Part shown: one piece after another, positions 3,179 through 11,743 of the stretch
Numbering within the stretch: the stretch's first letter is position 1
Layout: each line of letters begins with the position of its first letter
From: Helicostylum pulchrum
Lineage: Eukaryota; Mucoromycota; Mucoromycetes; Mucorales; Mucoraceae
DNA length: 12,657 nt
Direction: 5' to 3'
NCBI GenBank assembly: GCA_025677825.1
Contig: JAIXMO010000144.1
Location: 1-12,657 of the forward strand
The notes under the pieces: model-generated
Database searches by the model: none
The model's input: the letters and a program-made list of their open reading frames with translations, nothing else
What the model was told of the DNA's origin: nothing
Position numbers and translations under genes: made by a program

Positions 3179-4351
3179 TTGTCTTTAAACACTGTGTTGG
3201 CTACGTTCAATATTACTTCCTCTAGTGGAAATAACTATATGCTTATTTTGGTTGATCATTTCAGTCGATTTACAATTCTTCGCGCAATTACAGATAAATC
3301 TAGTCTCACTATAGCTAAAGAATTACTTAATGTTTTCTGTCTATTTTCATTTCCTAAGGTATTAACCTCTGACAATGGATCTGAATTCGTTAACGAAATT
3401 GTATCACAGTTAATTTTAATGAGTGGCATTGACAGACGATTATCTTTACCTTATACTCCTACTGGTAATAGCGTTACAGAACGATTTGTAGGAATTGCAA
3501 AATCTGTTATTGTTAAATCACTGAAAGGAAGACACGCAGATTGGGATTTATATCTCAATCCTACGCAATTGGCTATGAACATTAAATACTCTAAACTACA
3601 CAAGTCGAGACCTTATAGTATTGTATTTAACAGACAACCAAACGATTTTGCAGACTATTCTAAAGTCACACCTACCTTATCTTTAATGAAAGCTGATACT
3701 AAAAAGATACATGACAGACTTGCTTTTGCACAAGAAGTTGTTATTCCTCAAATAGCGATATTAATTAAGACCACACAAGATAATGATCATGCTCGTTTCG
3801 AAAAATCTCACAAGGTTTTAAAAGACATGTATCCAATTGGTAGTAAGGTGATGATCGTTAATGTACATCGTCAGTCTAAGTTAGATGAAAGATATTCAGG
3901 TCCATTTACTATCAAAGGATATACCAAAAACAAATCTTATATCTTAACAGACAGACTCGATAATCTTTTAAGCCGTGATGTTCCTACGCAACAGATTAAA
4001 TTAATCCAATCTAGTGCAGCTTCTCAAAATGTAGTTAAAGATAAACACTACGAGGTACAAGCTATTATCGCACACAGAGGTGGCCCCATTAATTATGAAT
4101 ACCTAGTTCATTGGTTAGGATATAATGATGAAGCAGACCATACTTGGCAAACTGCATCTGATTTCGATTCTTCTTTACACATAGAACTTTATTGGCAACG
4201 CCGCAATGGCAACAACACAAAGGCTGCTCCTTTAGCTAAAACTGTCAATCATACTATTCGTAAGAAAGTCAATCGTGATAAACATTCCAACAAGAATGCT
4301 CATATTATTACGCGATCTCAAAGATTACTTGAGGCTAAACAGCAAAAGTAA
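3179..4351 (+). pseudogene. Ty3/gypsy integrase fragment with GPY/F module and C-terminal chromodomain
   Basis: The frame is open for 390 codons after a TAG at 3176-3178. Its first codon is TTG, so this is the 3' part of a pol polyprotein and not a separate gene. Numbering from that TTG, the rve core has SDNG with Asp65 and VTER with Glu101, exactly 35 residues apart as in D,D35E integrases. The expected first catalytic Asp, about 57 residues before Asp65, aligns with Ala8 (LATF), so the enzyme is probably dead. Residues 236-244 (DERYSGPFT) are the GPY/F module. Residues 290-341 are a chromodomain, with cage residues Tyr291, Trp312 and Tyr315 at HP1 spacing. The tail is basic. Family knowledge: integrase inserts the cDNA and the chromodomain steers it toward methylated H3. 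A zinc-finger relic (HHCC) may lie at about 3050-3145 but is too weak to call. Confidence 0.85.
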
Positions 4352-4551: not shown

Positions 4552-4712
4552 TGTTGTATTCACGTACTATACAGATATATAATTTAGATATACCTTTATA
4601 CACAAAGGCTATATAACAATATAATATTACCTATTTAGTATTTGGATCTGTATACTTCTTATCGACTATATAAATTTAATGAAGAAATATAGTGTAACAG
4701 TTTATTTCTTCA

Positions 4713-4797
4713 AGTGATACAATAACCTACAAACAGTTTATTGTACTGAAGTGGTACAATAATCTACAAACAGTTATTCTTCTAAAAAGTGATACAA
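4713..4797 (+). repeat. Internal tandem repeats of the LTR U3 region
   Basis: Two copies of a 26-base unit (4713-4738 and 4750-4775, start to start 37 bases, two mismatches) are followed 38 bases later by a 10-base partial copy (4788-4797). The same array sits at 6261-6345 in the other LTR. It lies 140 to 220 bases before the TATA box. Repeated units there are often transcription-factor sites, which is inference here. Confidence 0.6.
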
Positions 4798-4933
4798 GAA
4801 GCACTTTGTCTTCAAAGCTTATTTATTCATATTTTCCCACATTATATTCACTTATTTTCCTCACCATCAACTCACTTATTTTTCCCACCATCAATTAATG
4901 TTCCTTCAAATGTCTTATTTATATTCTGAAAAG

Positions 4934-4942
4934 TATATATAA
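4934..4942 (+). promoter_or_regulatory. TATA box of LTR 1
   Basis: TATATATAA lies about 100 bases before the LTR end and is conserved in the second LTR. This is the expected place for the U3 core promoter, with R and U5 following. In a 3' LTR it would transcribe outward into the flanking DNA at 5040 and beyond. Confidence 0.55.
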
Positions 4943-5041
4943 GGACCTATAATTTCCATTAAATAAACAACAATCATTTTCAAGTCTGATAATCTTTCTG
5001 TTTAATTTTTTATTTTTGATATTTATTCTTTAAATATCATA

Positions 5042-5341
5042 GAGCTTCCGGAAAGTAGAAGTTGTGGTAGCTTTTACGCGGTGGTGGAAGTTATGAAGTC
5101 TCATAAAACTTCGCCTTACTCGAAATGTATACCCTTGGTTCAGCCTTTTCTCGCGAATGAGACAAAAAAATACGCTGTCATTGACGTTGGTGATATTTTA
5201 TCAGTTGTTGGGTTGATTCAAAAAACTGACTTGGTAAATAACCGGGCTCAATCTTCCAACTGGTTCTACGTGATTTCACCATCAACTGCTTTTGATCGAG
5301 ACATGTCCATTAACGCAGGCAAGATTAGTGACCTGTTGTAG
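5042..5341 (+). CDS. Fragment of an unrecognised gene, cut off by LTR 1
   Basis: The frame is open from the LTR edge to a TAG at 5339-5341. It encodes 99 residues from 5042, or 82 from the first ATG at 5093. The translation is protein-like (SNWFYVISPSTAFDRDM near the end) and coding potential seems to begin right where the LTR ends. This fits a gene whose 5' part was displaced when the retrotransposon inserted. It also fits a second small gene driven by the LTR promoter. I do not recognise the family, and no catalytic motif is visible. The missing 5' part is not elsewhere in the window. Confidence 0.45.
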   Translation, partial: ELPESRSCGSFYAVVEVMKSHKTSPYSKCIPLVQPFLANETKKYAVIDVGDILSVVGLIQKTDLVNNRAQSSNWFYVISPSTAFDRDMSINAGKISDLL

Positions 5342-5367
5342 TGCAGTAGGTTTTTTTCGCTTAAAGT

Positions 5368-5372
<5 letters not shown>

Positions 5373-5406
<34 letters not shown>
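5373..5406. repeat. CT dinucleotide microsatellite
   Basis: Seventeen perfect CT units. It lies in non-coding DNA after the stop of the 5042-5341 frame. Frames through it give only Leu-Ser or Arg-Glu runs. Confidence 0.95.
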
Positions 5407-5408
<2 letters not shown>

Positions 5409-6058
5409 GTATATATTTATAAAAATGAATTAAAAGAGCTTTTTTTTTCTGTTTACAAAAAAAAAAAGATATAAACATACATTGATTGTGACTGCACAAT
5501 TCATCGTGCTTTCTATGTTTGTAGTCATCTATAGCTGAGCTTTAGTCCTTCACACTCGGCAAACTTGTATATAGTTATCGTCATCTTAATTGTTTTCTTT
5601 CTATTCAATCTTTTCGCAGCAACATTTTTTTACGTATCTCGTCGTAAAAAAAAGGGCTTTTTAGCATTATCTGTAGTGTCAACACCAGTAAGAGGACTTT
5701 ATTTTATTACAGTTAACGGTATGTATTGCGAATTAAAAGAATAAGTAAAAAAAAAAAAAAGTAGTAGAATATAAGGGCGTTTATTAAAAAAAAATACTTG
5801 CTTTATATAAGAACTCATTAGAGCGGAATATTAATTTTAACAAAGCAATCCGCATAAAAAAAAATATATATTATATAGCGATAAATGGAGCGCTATCGCT
5901 TCCCTGACCGCTGAATCCTTTTTTTTTAAAAAAAATCTGAATTCTGTTAGCATTCTTTTTTTTTCCATTTGGAGAAAATGAGCAAAAGCTGTAATTGAAA
6001 AGAAGGAAATTGAAATTCCATCGATAATTTTTTTTTTCCCTGCCAAATTTTAGCGATA

Positions 6059-6099: not shown

Positions 6100-6585
6100 T
6101 GTTGTATTCACGTACTATACAGATATATAATTTAGATATACCTTTATACACAAAGGCTATATAACAATATAATATTATCTATTTGGTATTTGGATCTGTA
6201 TACTTCTTATCGACTATATAAATTTAATGAAGAAATATAGTGTAACAGTTTATTTCTTCAAGTGATACAATAACCTACAAACAGTTCATTGTACTGAAGT
6301 AGTACAATAATCTACAAACAGTTATTCTTCTAAAAAGTGATACAAGAAGCACTTTGTCTTCAAAGCTTATTCATTCATATTTTCCCACATTATATTCACT
6401 TATTTTCCTCACCATCAACTCACTTATTTTTCCCACCATCAATTAATGTTCCTTCAATGTCTTATTTATATTCTGAAAAGTATATATAAGGACCCATAAT
6501 TTCCATTAAATAAAAAACAATCATTTCAAGTCTGATAATCTTTCTGTTTAATTTTTTATTTTTGATATTTATTCTTTAAATATCA
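6100..6585 (+). repeat. LTR 2: 5' LTR of element 2
   Basis: A 486-base copy of the same LTR, TGTTGTATT to AATATCA. The two indels against LTR 1 are one A (in TTCAAATG, which is TTCAATG here) and one T (in CATTTTCAAG, which is CATTTCAAG here). Gag starts about 105 bases downstream, so this is a 5' LTR. It comes from a different insertion than LTR 1, so the divergence between them measures family age and not the age of one insertion. Confidence 0.93.
6481..6489 (+). promoter_or_regulatory. TATA box of LTR 2, promoter of element 2
   Basis: TATATATAA at the same relative place as in LTR 1. Transcription would start a few tens of bases downstream and run through the leader into gag at 6692. Confidence 0.55.
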
Positions 6586-6691
6586 TATTTTTTTTTATCA
6601 ATTCTAATTCCTGTTGTTTTATTTTTTGAAAATTATCCTTTATTTTTTTTTCTCTCCCTTTTAAAAAAAAAAATTATTATTTCCACTTACC
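6586..6691 (+). other. Leader of element 2; no clear tRNA primer site
   Basis: About 105 bases of T-rich then A-rich DNA lie between the LTR and the gag ATG. Directly after the LTR there is a T run (TATTTTTTTTT). I see none of the usual complementary tRNA 3' ends (such as TGG-starting sites) within the first 10 to 15 bases. The ATG at 6692 has the context TTACCATGT. Confidence 0.5.
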
Positions 6692-6788
6692 ATGTCTATT
6701 CCTACTCAAAACTTTATCGGTCCTGTTGCTCCTCCTGCTACTAGAATGGAAGATGTTGAATTTTCTGCCGAAACTGCTCCCAATGTTA
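6692..6788 (+). pseudogene. 5' piece of gag, split by the DNA transposon
   Basis: The ATG at 6692 opens 32 codons rich in Pro/Ala/Thr (MSIPTQNFIGPVAPPA at the start). The frame breaks at the TTA of 6786-6788, where the transposon begins. The downstream part of gag resumes at 9171 in the same frame when one TTA is counted, so no gag sequence was lost. Read into the transposon, the frame would give only an aberrant short peptide. Confidence 0.85.
6786..6788. repeat. Left target-site duplication (TTA) of the DNA transposon
   Basis: TTA directly before the element, matched by TTA at 9168-9170 directly after it. A 3-base TTA/TWA duplication is characteristic of PIF/Harbinger transposons. Counting one TTA keeps gag in frame, which supports this reading over a 4-base TTAG. 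Confidence 0.8.
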
Positions 6789-7067
6789 GAATAATGTTTC
6801 TGTTTTATATATAATTATTGATATTACAACAACTATAAATACATTATTATGTAACACCAATATAGTTCTTATCAACAAAATTAATCCATGGAAACAAATA
6901 TATATTACGTGAAAAAAAATATGTTTTTAATTGGCAATTATATTTTCATGGTATAAACATATTAACAATAAATTGTAATTATGTTCAAAGAATCAATAAT
7001 ATTCTTAAGCCTAAACGATTATTTTTAAAAAAACATTTTATATTTTATGGGTATTAAAACATTGTTC
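6789..7067. repeat. Left 279-base direct repeat, MITE-like
   Basis: Identical at every base to 8889-9167. Identity extends to 6786-7068 and 8886-9168 (283 bases, exact offset 2,100) because TTA precedes and T follows both copies. The repeat starts GAATAATGTTT and ends AAACATTGTTC, so it is bounded by its own inverted ends. It is flanked by TTA on the left and TAA on the right. It has no coding capacity and no TG...CA ends. Confidence 0.95.
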
Positions 7068-7078
7068 TAATCTGCTAT

Positions 7079-8548
7079 TCACAGATCTTTATTAAATTCT
7101 GTCCAATAATGCTCTATACAATATTTTTGCATAAATTCACTTTCTTTAACCCATGTTGTCTCATCATAATTTAACCATTTTACTAAATATATATAACTGT
7201 CTTTCTCTTTTTTATGACACATTATTTTTTCAATCTCATATACATCGTTAAATTCATCATTATCTATTCCCATGTCATAATCATTATCATTTTGAATGTT
7301 TAGTTTATTAAACTTTGCTTTTAAATTATTAATCAAATTATTTTGGTAAAAGTTTTTATTATTAATATATTCCTGTTTATACATAATGGCGTTATCTAAT
7401 CTGAATACTTCCTCGACTACCTCATCATTTTCATATTTATATTCGAAATTTTTTTCTGTCCAATTTTTATATATATCTTTATAGATATCATTATCTGCAT
7501 CATATACTTTACAACTGTTTTTTAGGTTAAAAATAACTGCAGCAAAGTTTAATTGTAAGTTATATAACGATTTTTCAGTTATTCTTATTATATTATGTTT
7601 ATTAAACCTTTCAAAATCATTAGTAAAATGATGAAAAAATGTTTCTATACTTGACCTTAAACTATTAATTTGTTTATTAAATAAAGCTTGTTGAACTGAT
7701 AAATCTTCTCCAATAGATTTTCTAAATGGAAAAGCAAATGATTCTATATCAATATTATAACCTTTAGCATTTATTTTATCTATTGTATTTGGAATGTGTA
7801 AAGTATATCCTCCATCTACTAATATACAATCACCCATATTAACATATTTATACAGTAGCATTTCTTCCATCATAACACCATCAGTTTTATCACTACATGG
7901 TACACTTTCACTTACATGAATAATAAAATTGTTAATATCAATTAAAAACTGTGTTCTATATCCATCATTTTTAAATTTATATGAATACATTCTTTTTTTA
8001 TCAAAATGTATATCTTGGTAAGATACTCTGCTATCATATCCATCTATAAAACATGTAACATTTTTAATTTTCAAAGGGTTATTTATCTTTGCAGATAGAA
8101 TTCTTATTATATAATTTGTAAAAAAATCTTTGTTTAACATTTTATTTATCCATTCAGAAAGATCTTTTTTGTGTTTAACATAAAATCTTTTATATATTTT
8201 AAAAAAATTAGTGTATGGTATATATTTATCCATTTTATTTATGGATAAACCACTTACTATATGAAACAATAACAATAATCCTTTTTCTATATGCCTATAT
8301 GGTCCTGGTAATTCTATTTTATAAAAATAATCCGTTAAAAATATATGGATAGGTAAGTATCCTATTTTTTGAATAAGTATTTTTTTAATTTCATCTATAT
8401 ATTTAACATCTTGAATTATGGTTCTATGAAAAAATTTGTATTTTTTTGTTTCTGGATAACTACAATGTAAAAAATCCCATGTATTTAACAGTTCTTTTAC
8501 TTGTAAATCGTATAGTGTTTGAAGATCGATGTCGTCATCCTTATTCAT
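7079..8548 (-). CDS. DDE transposase (PIF/Harbinger, DDE_Tnp_4-like) with C-terminal chromodomain
   Basis: An intact 489-residue protein. I start it at the ATG at 8548. A frame extended to 8557 would need a TTG start. Residues about 85-120 look like a helix-turn-helix (LLLLFHIVSGLSINKMDKYI). The catalytic core has Asp169 in FIDGYD, Asp245 in ILVDGGY and Glu302 in RSSIETFF, matching the D / D-x-x-Y / R-x-x-x-E pattern of HARBI1-type transposases. A linker rich in Asn/Asp/Lys follows. Residues 436-483 are a chromodomain with cage residues Tyr437, Trp458 and Tyr461, the spacing seen in HP1. Family role: nuclear cut-and-paste excision and insertion at TWA sites. The chromodomain would add binding to methylated H3 (inference). 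No introns. The Myb/SANT partner gene usual in PIF/Harbinger elements is absent from the element. Confidence 0.88.
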   Translation of the reverse strand: MNKDDDIDLQTLYDLQVKELLNTWDFLHCSYPETKKYKFFHRTIIQDVKYIDEIKKILIQKIGYLPIHIFLTDYFYKIELPGPYRHIEKGLLLLFHIVSGLSINKMDKYIPYTNFFKIYKRFYVKHKKDLSEWINKMLNKDFFTNYIIRILSAKINNPLKIKNVTCFIDGYDSRVSYQDIHFDKKRMYSYKFKNDGYRTQFLIDINNFIIHVSESVPCSDKTDGVMMEEMLLYKYVNMGDCILVDGGYTLHIPNTIDKINAKGYNIDIESFAFPFRKSIGEDLSVQQALFNKQINSLRSSIETFFHHFTNDFERFNKHNIIRITEKSLYNLQLNFAAVIFNLKNSCKVYDADNDIYKDIYKNWTEKNFEYKYENDEVVEEVFRLDNAIMYKQEYINNKNFYQNNLINNLKAKFNKLNIQNDNDYDMGIDNDEFNDVYEIEKIMCHKKEKDSYIYLVKWLNYDETTWVKESEFMQKYCIEHYWTEFNKDL

Positions 8549-8885
8549 TATATACAATTTATTTGATTATAATAATAAATTCACTTATATGATTTTAAAT
8601 ATGTAACAATTTTGAAATATATGAATAAAAAGGTAAATACTGAAGATCTTGCATATTCAATCATATATATAATTTGTGTTTAATGGTACTAACAAAGGAA
8701 ACATTAAAAAGTTTGTAAATCTATTAAAAAACGAATAATATTTATACTAATATTGTTTTTTAAAGACAAAAAAATTGCGTCCTCATTTTAAAGATTTATA
8801 TTTTATGCAAATGAGAAGAAAAAGAAATTATTTATGATTTATAATCAATATATACCAATATGAATTTAGTGACTGCCTTTTCTAA
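8549..8885 (-). promoter_or_regulatory. Upstream region of the transposase gene
   Basis: About 337 bases of extremely AT-rich DNA between the transposase ATG and the right repeat. It must hold the promoter unless the right repeat itself supplies it. Many TATA-like strings are present and none stands out, so I do not choose one. No open frame of interest. Confidence 0.4.
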
Positions 8886-8888
8886 TTA

Positions 8889-9167
8889 GAATAATGTTTC
8901 TGTTTTATATATAATTATTGATATTACAACAACTATAAATACATTATTATGTAACACCAATATAGTTCTTATCAACAAAATTAATCCATGGAAACAAATA
9001 TATATTACGTGAAAAAAAATATGTTTTTAATTGGCAATTATATTTTCATGGTATAAACATATTAACAATAAATTGTAATTATGTTCAAAGAATCAATAAT
9101 ATTCTTAAGCCTAAACGATTATTTTTAAAAAAACATTTTATATTTTATGGGTATTAAAACATTGTTC
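8889..9167. repeat. Right 279-base direct repeat, MITE-like
   Basis: Same orientation and same sequence as 6789-7067. TTA precedes it (8886-8888) inside the element and TTA follows it (9168-9170) as the outer target-site copy. It lies 5' of the transposase gene and could act as its promoter, while the left copy lies at the gene's 3' end, as in LTR elements. Confidence 0.95.
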
Positions 9168-9170
9168 TTA
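9168..9170. repeat. Right target-site duplication (TTA) of the DNA transposon
   Basis: The TTA directly after AAACATTGTTC. Its last A starts the gag codon that is completed by GT at 9171-9172, and gag then stays open. Confidence 0.8.
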
Positions 9171-11743
9171 GTTCTACTCCTGTTGCTAATCCTAAGGCTC
9201 CTGTCTGTCTTCCTCGTGGTGCTGGTTCTGACCCTGCTGCTGGTTTGCAAGTCAGTATTTCCTTACTCCATGAAGAAATTGTTTCATTGTATGCTCTTAT
9301 TGCTTCTAGTAATGGTACTACTGATGAATTAAGAAGTTACCGTGAGAAAGTAAGTAAAAAAATGGGGGATTTAGATCAGCTCGGTAGGGCTCAGAAGTTG
9401 ATTCAGGCTACGGCCGGCAGTACACTTGCAGGTGCCAAGTTGTCGAATGTAGTACCTCGTAATCTTCCTCTGTTTCAATGGGAAAACCAGGTCTCTGTAC
9501 CAGGTGCTCCTGTTTTCGTGGATGTAAACACTTGCATCATGAATTTTACTGATGTTATGATTAGTCATAACTTAGATTTGGATGCTAATTACCTTCGGGT
9601 ATTACCTCCTCTTCTTGCTGGAACTATTCGTCTTTGGTTTGAAGATTTTGTGACACAATTTAGAAAATTGTACCAACAAGATCCTTCTTGGATTCAGTTC
9701 TCCACTGCCATGCAAGATCGCTATGGTCTTAACGTGCAGGAAGAACGTAACAACTGTGCTAGGGAGTTAAACAGTATTATGATGTATGAAGGTGAGAACC
9801 TTGAATCGTTCATTGATAGATTCAACAGTTTGAGACGCCGTGCGGTAGATCAAGTATTACCCAATTCATTATTAATCGAACGTTTTCTTCTTGCTTTGCC
9901 TCGAAAGGTTGCTGAATATATCAACGTTGCTATTGTCAATCTTCCTGAATACAAGCGACAAGATATTGAAGTTCTTTCAGATTTGGCCCGCCGATTGCAA
10001 AACAGTACTTTGTTTACTATGCGTGCTAATACCATGGTTGCCCCTTTGATGCCTCCTCGTGCTCCTAAGCGTTCTGCCATGCACATTGATCAAAATGATG
10101 CTGTACACAGATCTTCGAATAGATCTAGGCATGCTACCAATTTGGCTCGTGCTGCTGCGCCCACTGGTACCACTACTGGTGAATCTTCCTCTTCTGCTGC
10201 TGTTTCTGTTGTGCCCCAACCAACTGACAAGTATTGTACCTTCCACAAGGCTAAGTCTCACAATACTAGTGAATGTCGTGCTGCTGCTGCTGCTGGTACC
10301 AATGTGAAACCCCGGGTGAAATATTGCCATGGCTGTGGTGTCGCCGGTTGGAACCCTCGACACGAGTGCGCTACTGCAAAACGTACGTCTCCTCCTCTTC
10401 CTCCTAATACTAATCAAGAGTATAACTTTGGTGCGATGACCTTGCAACAAGGTAGCAATGTTGTTGGCCCTGCCAATACTTCTTCTGCTGTTCCTTCTGT
10501 TCCTTCTGTTCCTTTTGTTCCTTCTGCTGTCTCTTCTGCTTCGGTTACGACTTCGCGTGCTGAATTACAGGCAGCATACAATGCTGGTGTTGCTGACGCC
10601 ACTGCGGATATACAGGAATTATCCATTGCTGATGATGAAGATGTCATCATGGATATACAAGCCCAGAATTGTAAGTATCATAACGTATTTAGTTCTTTAC
10701 CAGAAAATAAGTCTAACATGATCATAATTCCTATTATTATTCAGAATATTAAAACGTATGCCATTGTTGATACTGGTGCTACTTTTAGCATGGTGTCTCC
10801 TTCTTTTTCGACTTTTTTGGGTGGTGATATCAAGGTAGTTCCTTCCAAAGGTACTATCCAACTTGGCCATTCTGAAGCAGTAGTTAACAGATCTGGTTCT
10901 ACAATTTTAAACATCTATTATAATAAAAAGGTTTTAAAACACAATTTCGAGATTTTTTCTTTCTTTACAAGTAAAAATAACAGTACCATACCTATATTGA
11001 TTGGACTTGATTTAATAAGTAAACTTAACATTGGTATCACTGGTTTAGCACTTAGTCATACAGAACTTGCAGCTGATAACCCTTTTTCCGATCCTCCTAT
11101 TGATCCTTCTATTTCTGAACCTAATAACAGTCCTTATGGCACTATAGAAGAAAGAATTGAAATGGAAAAGTTATTAGAGCCTGTACTTCTTGCTAATAAG
11201 AATATTGATGTTAAAAACACTTACTGTACACTACCTGGAGCTATTGTATACCTTGAAACCAAACCTGGTTGTATTGCTTATCGTAAAAGTTATAGTCTTC
11301 CTTTAGCATATAAGGAGAAAGTAGCTGAGCAACTACAAATTTGGCAGGATGATAATGTAATTGAACCTGTTTCAACTTATAATGGGTTTAATTCTCCTTT
11401 ATTGGTAGTCGGAAAAAAAGATACTTCTGGTAAAATATCTAAAGAGAAAATTAGATTAGTTACAGATGTCAGAAATCTTAATGCTTTACTTACTGAAACT
11501 GATACACAACGATTTCCTTTGATTTCGGAAATCCATCAGAAGTTGGGGATGTCTAAAATTCATACTGTACTTGATATTAAGGCATGCTTCAATAGTTTCA
11601 GGATAGCAAAAGAACATAGACACAAACTTGCTTTTACAGACGTCTTTACAAACAAGCAATGGCAATACAAGAAAGCACCATTTGGGATTTCTTTCATTGG
11701 GAACCTTGTACAAAGAGTTTTACAAGATTGTTTAGCGACTTAG
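9171..11743 (+). pseudogene. Main part of gag-pol: capsid, zinc knuckles, protease, first half of reverse transcriptase
   Basis: Continues the frame of 6692-6788 and stays open for 2.57 kb until a TAG at 11741-11743. Gag core at about 9430-10020 (LWFEDFVTQF, ENLESFIDRF) is typical of the Retrotransposon gag family. Two Cys/His knuckles lie at 10235-10276 (CX2HX4HX4C) and 10325-10369. Protease has AIVDTGATFSMV with the catalytic Asp at 10769-10771 and a later ILIGLDLI. Reverse transcriptase starts near 11270 (ETKPGCIAYRKSY) and shows LVTDVRNLN, VLDIKACFNSF with the first catalytic Asp at 11573-11575, and KKAPFGISF. The TAG comes just before the YVDD box, which lies in the next frame. Gag and Pol in one frame is seen in several fungal Ty3 elements. 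The gene is non-functional, split at its 5' end and shifted at 11741. Confidence 0.88.

Follow-up and report, generated by a model that had tools for sequence, protein, structure and literature searches.

The window, the whole stretch of 12,657 nucleotides analysed here (contig JAIXMO010000144.1 of Helicostylum pulchrum, assembly GCA_025677825.1), carries a 2,379-bp insertion with long direct repeats (R) at both ends and an internal region (INT) with one intact open reading frame (ORF) between them (Table 1). The initial annotation had placed this element at 6789-9167, which proved right to the base, and had described identical 279-base direct repeats bounded by TTA duplications. Both claims were matched exactly: the two copies of R showed 0 differences over 279 bases, and two empty sites confirmed the duplication. 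When the element was removed and one TTA was kept, the joined flanks corresponded to the empty sites at L038 and L041 with 99.2% identity over 120 bases and 0 gaps.

The joined flanks also restored a 274-aa open frame across the site, which matches a Ty3-type gag. Elsewhere in the window, a 5'-truncated Ty3-type element (3197-4351 and 4552-5041), whose integrase has a chromodomain of its own and is accompanied by an LTR, adjoins the second Ty3-type element with the LTR at 6100-6587. A CT microsatellite lies at 5373-5406, between both Ty3-type LTRs. In the same genome (32.2 Mb in 168 contigs), the window family is represented by this one full copy, and no solo copy of the window R was found there. 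An aspartic protease encoded in this genome has yeast saccharopepsin as its top match in PDB (E 2e-127), in keeping with a fungal host.

Table 1. Coordinates of the element, its parts and its target in the window
Feature	Positions	Strand	Basis or remark
Target: Ty3-type element, LTR 6100-6587 and gag start (ATG 6692)	6100..6788	+	Split by the insertion, resumes at 9171
Left target site duplication, TTA	6786..6788		Equals 9168-9170; empty sites L038, L041
R, copy downstream of the ORF, 279 bp	6789..7067	-	Own short inverted ends GAATAATGTTT / GAACAATGTTT, 10/12
INT (internal region), 1,821 bp, one long ORF	7068..8888	-	No other ATG ORF >45 aa (intronless reading)
Transposase ORF, 489 aa	7079..8548	-	ORF translation, Pfam, homologues
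Chromodomain, residues 437-483	7100..7240	-	Pfam; HP1 profile match
DDE_Tnp_4 match, residues 183-341	7526..8002	-	Pfam; alignment
R, upstream copy	8889..9167	-	Identical to 6789-7067
Right target site duplication, TTA	9168..9170		Equals 6786-6788; empty sites

The transposase-chromodomain protein

The minus-strand ORF had been annotated as an intact 489-residue protein with a PIF/Harbinger-type core and a C-terminal chromodomain, and domain models bore out both parts. Pfam matched DDE_Tnp_4 (E 7e-10) and Chromo (E 6.9e-6), each above its curated cut-off. A search of the protein database returned 23 homologues, among them near-duplicates, a 99% twin of the window protein and the protein of another family of the same genome (C44; P0020). 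DDE_Tnp_4 and Chromo occurred together in 22 of the 23 according to precomputed Pfam matches, and a profile search of the same database found no protein beyond these.

We aligned the window protein with 16 of the homologues (alignment A1). The seven that do not appear in A1 are P0001, which is the near-identical twin, together with P0007-P0010, P0012 and P0014; these are near-copies or shorter forms with the exception of P0007, which is absent for no sequence-based reason. Three acidic residues, D169 (just outside the DDE_Tnp_4 match), D245 and E302, were invariant in all 17 aligned proteins, and from the alignment and general knowledge of transposases we take them to be the candidate catalytic residues. 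At the other end of the protein, the Y-W-Y cage of HP1 has its counterparts in the aligned residues Y437, W458 and Y461; the W and the second Y were present in 16 of 17 proteins, as was a Y or F at the first position, and the residues were conserved across proteins as little as 32% identical to that of the window. Going by this alignment and by what is familiar of HP1, they presumably form an aromatic cage with predicted binding to methyl-lysine. A profile built from the 17 proteins and compared with PDB likewise matched the HP1 chromodomain 1kna (E 1.1e-10). The sole cage exception among the 17 is P0013, which is 45% identical to the window protein, keeps D/D/E and has no Chromo match.

Other families with the same plan

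Searching the genome with the window protein gave at least 47 matches. At least 13 of them fall in the transposase part, a further one is a weak relic (C105; E 0.001, 23%), and at least 33 cover the chromodomain end alone (residue 392 onward), the Ty3 integrase of the window among them. Two further families share the R-INT-R plan. The C44 element measures 2,291 bp, with an R of 239 bp, an INT of 1,813 bp and an ORF of 489 aa. The other family has three copies, C9, C20 and C29, which share every base of a 2,337-bp element with an R of 250 bp, an INT of 1,837 bp and an ORF of 479 aa.

The two repeats of an element, R1 and R2, were identical in all five direct-repeat copies (C51, which is the window copy, C44, C9, C20 and C29). 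In C51, C44 and C9 alike, INT holds a single ORF with DDE_Tnp_4 and Chromo, and no second ATG ORF of at least 60 aa was found in the INT of C44 and C9 on an intronless reading. The R of each of these three starts with GA, ends with TC and has inverted ends of its own, in which 10 (C51), 11 (C44) and 9 (C9) of the 12 outermost positions match; the probability that random pairs taken from R sequences match at 9 or more of 12 is 0.006.

The remaining members with coding sequence stand outside these five: C28 has an R and a body cut short, the 3' part of C50 is degenerate, the 5' part of C65 is missing, C42, C47 and C17 are truncated, and C15 has inverted arms. Downstream of the coding sequence of C65, a unit of 262 bp (L043:3655-3916) has inverted ends matching at 9 of 12 positions. 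Since the ends themselves had guided the choice of this unit by eye, the match is not independent evidence; no second copy of it was found in the genome, and in an unguided scan of L043 for R-like units, defined by inverted ends of 12 bases spaced at 220-300 bp, among the 12 of 17 pairs listed, it was no better than A/T-rich chance pairs. C17 also bears 63 bases that resemble the C44 R (85%). At about 3200-3500 of L042, after the degenerate C50, a frame begins with a zinc-ribbon-like CxxC...C motif and by eye resembles the start of another transposase.

Further copies had been expected to have direct repeats as well. This was true of C44 and of C9/C20/C29, and it failed for C15, so that direct repeats were present in five of the six copies with both ends visible. 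C15 (L037:3545-5778) is the one two-ended copy of a sister family that also comprises C42, C47 and C17. It has perfect 233-bp inverted arms, which take in the 3' end of the chromodomain-coding stretch, and neither inner inverted ends nor a clear target duplication was found in it. The same inner junction recurs in C17 (L046:4434-4960). Direct repeats are thus not universal, because the C15 family has inverted ends.

In a tree of 24 rows, computed without the distant C35 (a DDE_Tnp_4 protein of the same genome that sits on a very long branch), C51 and C44/C65 lay opposite C9 across the midpoint branch (99/98); the tree is unrooted. Because direct-repeat families stand on both sides of this branch, the R-INT-R plan is likely to be old in this transposase lineage, judging from the sequence relationships. 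C15 and C42 fell on the C9 side. It is possible that the ends were altered in the C15 family, or else that direct repeats had more than one origin.

The repeats themselves show little or no similarity from family to family. Between families, R identity was 0.498 and 0.483 for two pairs, against shuffled means of 0.497 and 0.505 (20 shuffles each), and 0.610 for C51 and C9, just above the shuffled maximum of 0.597, whereas INT identity was 0.551-0.566 against about 0.50 in 3 shuffles. With R near the shuffled level and INT above it, R has been replaced from one family to the next, yet R1 and R2 have remained alike within each, and some process must equalise the two repeats. In the C9 family, a recent origin would by itself be enough to explain the identity of the repeats, since its three copies show no difference over their 2,337 bp.

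Beyond this genome, no relatives with flanking DNA turned up in three scans of viral contigs. A scan of genome contigs found two, L047 (CANQOV010000062.1) and L048 (CANQPA010000068.1), both labelled 'uncultured Bacilli' MAGs from the sample Lapin-032; L047 carries a Chromo match, and both contigs end close to the ORF. The presence of a eukaryote-type transposase in Bacilli MAGs is probably due to eukaryote contamination. Upstream of the ORFs, the scan for R-like units returned 16 pairs in L047, 12 of them listed, and 12 in L048, all listed. A segment of L048 at 2115-2361 (247 bp, GA..TC) was considered as an R and set aside as one of many chance-level pairs.

Solo repeats and insertion sites

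R also occurs alone. Four solo R were found: the C44 repeat stands by itself at C73, C62 and C69 and the C9 repeat at C33, in each case with 0-1 difference to the R of a full copy. Perfect 3-bp target duplications flanked each of the nine insertions, whether full (five) or solo (four). TTA, which the annotation had reported for the window, did not extend beyond it: the other eight sites were AAA (within a run of A), ATA, CAA, CAG, AAG, TAG, GTT and CTG. A TWA-type target was therefore present at one of the nine sites only, and the middle base was A or T at all nine. For C44, an empty site matched the joined flanks with 98.3% identity over 120 bases and a 2-bp gap in the flank; none was found for C9, C20 and C29 among the loci compared.

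When the flanks were joined and read within 700 bases on either side, four of the nine sites (C51, C20, C29 and C33) gave open frames of 274-466 aa that partly match Ty3 gag/pol. The joined site of C62 gave a 289-aa frame with no match to these Ty3 proteins, and the other four gave no long frame.

Apart from the C105 relic, which was left out of this count, the member loci lie on 16 contigs of 10-33 kb, 12 with coding sequence and four with a solo R only. Many of the chromodomain-only matches, partly Ty3 integrases, share those small contigs. DDE_Tnp_4 genes as such are not limited to small contigs, since nine DDE_Tnp_4 matches outside the family are on contigs of 37 kb or more, of which two were measured at 660 and 721 kb. 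Assembly may account for the confinement of the family to small contigs. The insertion pattern fits targeting by the chromodomain; selection and assembly bias would look similar.

Two other repeat structures were seen on these loci. A near-perfect palindrome of 640 bp (95.6%) lies at L045:4093-4730 near a Ty3-type LTR (5199-5668). In L040, a 340-bp inverted pair (7064-7403 and 7891-8230; 99.7%) has a partial Ty3-type LTR (7636-7892) between its arms, and single copies of this arm recur in L037, L042 and L044.

Probable mode of movement and relation to known elements

On this evidence we consider it quite probable that the element is a composite-like R-INT-R unit, likely of the PHIS (Harbinger/IS5-type) group, which encodes one DDE and chromodomain protein and follows the cycle and targeting set out here. 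Its own transposase-chromodomain protein probably moves it and is likely to direct it to silent DNA rich in retroelements. In the predicted reaction, the transposase cleaves at the inverted ends of the outer repeats and integrates the complete unit with a 3-bp stagger; if it acts on the short inverted ends of every R, both R-INT-R and a single R could be its substrates. Recombination would keep R1 and R2 identical. A crossover between R1 and R2 would give a solo R and an R-INT circle, and such a circle could rebuild R-INT-R at a solo R. Neither an R-INT dimer nor a clean half element (R-INT or INT-R flanked by a duplication) was among the copies found. The chromodomain would read methylated histone H3 and bring the element to heterochromatin, represented here by Ty3-type retroelements. 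It might also stand in for the missing Myb/SANT partner, a replacement that is plausible, no second ORF being seen in INT.

The strongest competitor, to which we give slightly less than even chances, is that solo R and the identity of the repeats come purely from homologous recombination between R1 and R2 in recent insertions, as with solo LTRs, and that the transposase never moves R. The small distance of the solo R from the R of full copies (0-1 base) and their intact 3-bp duplications are what recombination would leave behind. Recombination alone has no need of the inverted ends that are also kept on the inner side of each R; these can be explained as well by the copying of one R onto the other, because R1 equals R2. 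The authors who described KolobokP, a composite element of animals, argue in the accessible part of their paper that single repeats get excised (PMC9587614), which speaks against recombination as the only route. Where the copies lie might likewise owe nothing to the chromodomain. They may survive only in retroelement-rich, gene-poor DNA, with small contigs gathering repeats, an account that we regard as possible, if less so than recombination alone. Every counted copy is indeed on a contig of 10-33 kb, where assembly bias is expected, and yet the nine outside-family matches are on larger contigs and the cage residues have been conserved over proteins as distant as 32% identity.

Far less credible is an LTR-retrotransposon-like element copied through RNA by reverse transcriptase from the surrounding Ty3 elements, even though identical direct end repeats, solo copies and a setting among Ty3 elements all recall one. 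R ends in GA..TC and not TG..CA, each R has short inverted ends, the duplications are of 3 bp, a gag or reverse transcriptase ORF is absent from INT, and no primer-binding site or purine tract was seen by eye at the R borders in the window. Because R begins with GA, ends with TC and has short inverted ends, we read the unit as a composite-like DNA transposon and not as an LTR retrotransposon. The annotation's description of the ends as LTR-like accordingly gave way: each R has inverted ends of its own and occurs alone with a target duplication, which points to a composite-like mechanism. A fortuitous arrangement, in which two copies of a miniature element happened to insert around a transposase gene or the assembly is at fault, might be suspected from the single full copy of the window family. 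Its likelihood is negligible, given three families with five copies, near-constant lengths of R and INT and a 3-bp duplication outside the whole unit; for the window element a chance origin is excluded, because two other families share the R-INT-R plan.

Returning to the composite-like reading, the catalytic domain and the 3-bp duplication make it likely, on sequence grounds, that the element belongs with the PHIS group, which in the available text of PMC12730594 unites Harbinger, ISL2EU, Spy, Nuwa, Pangu and PHISTA. The likeness to PIF/Harbinger described there lies in the DDE_Tnp_4 domain, the 3-bp duplication and the short inverted ends. Unlike canonical PIF/Harbinger elements, the present one has no Myb/SANT ORF in INT (on an intronless reading; a partner in trans is possible), a fused chromodomain, long direct end repeats, and a TWA (TTA/TAA) target at just one of nine sites. 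With Ty3/gypsy chromoviruses it shares a C-terminal chromodomain on a DDE DNA-joining enzyme, direct end repeats and residence on the same small contigs, but theirs is another integrase family, and their RNA copying, TG..CA ends and gag-pol have no counterpart here. In the portions available, one paper names Mavericks and chromoviruses or certain retrotransposons as chromodomain carriers (PMC10799480), and another places fused chromodomains in Gypsy elements and describes two-gene Harbingers (PMC12477816). Bacterial composite and IS26-type pseudo-composite elements, as outlined in the accessible text of PMC9587614, resemble ours in having end units around an INT and a possible circle of end unit and INT; their transposase, in contrast, lies in the end unit, whereas here it lies in INT.

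The closest parallel is KolobokP (Kojima and Bao 2022, PMC9587614). According to the part of that paper available, an INT with a DDD/E transposase lies between long terminal direct repeats (LTDR), each with short inverted ends, and solo repeats occur with target duplications; the paper presents these repeats as unlike those of any other DNA transposon. The present elements agree with that description in their long direct repeats with own inverted ends, in their solo repeats with duplications and in the position of the transposase. The same text gives KolobokP of animals repeats of about 450 or 660 bp, autonomous elements generally longer than 4 kb, common multimers, duplications of 3-4 or 4-5 bp, a Kolobok transposase with C/DxxH and a His-Me homing endonuclease, which is proposed to help multiply the composite plan and offset its loss. 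Here, by contrast, R is 239-279 bp, the elements are 2.3-2.4 kb and no multimer was seen; the window transposase combines DDE_Tnp_4 with a chromodomain and has no C/DxxH between D245 and E302; and no second ORF was seen in INT, hence no gene for a His-Me finger endonuclease. The combination seen in the window had been put forward as possibly undescribed. As far as DDE_Tnp_4, chromodomain and direct repeats together are concerned this stood, and in the open-access literature, as distinct from subscription papers and Repbase, the titles and abstract openings returned mention no Harbinger/PHIS element with long direct end repeats or with a chromodomain. The end architecture by itself has its precedent in KolobokP, within the limits of the text cited above.

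In conclusion, the structure is well supported, and it most likely represents the LTDR plan of KolobokP reached in a chromodomain-bearing Harbinger-type lineage. A bolder version, in which this is a second independent invention of LTDR by a Harbinger-type element that sheds solo R and R-INT circles, rebuilds itself without a homing endonuclease and parasitises retroelement heterochromatin by means of its chromodomain, strikes us as unlikely when taken whole. That the KolobokP plan occurs here with another transposase and with one gene only suggests that it can do without such an endonuclease, and that DNA transposons can acquire direct end repeats on more than one occasion. Furthermore, with a Harbinger-type transposase that carries a chromodomain, the targeting of heterochromatin by cut-and-paste elements would become testable, using the 489-residue protein and the 279-bp end.
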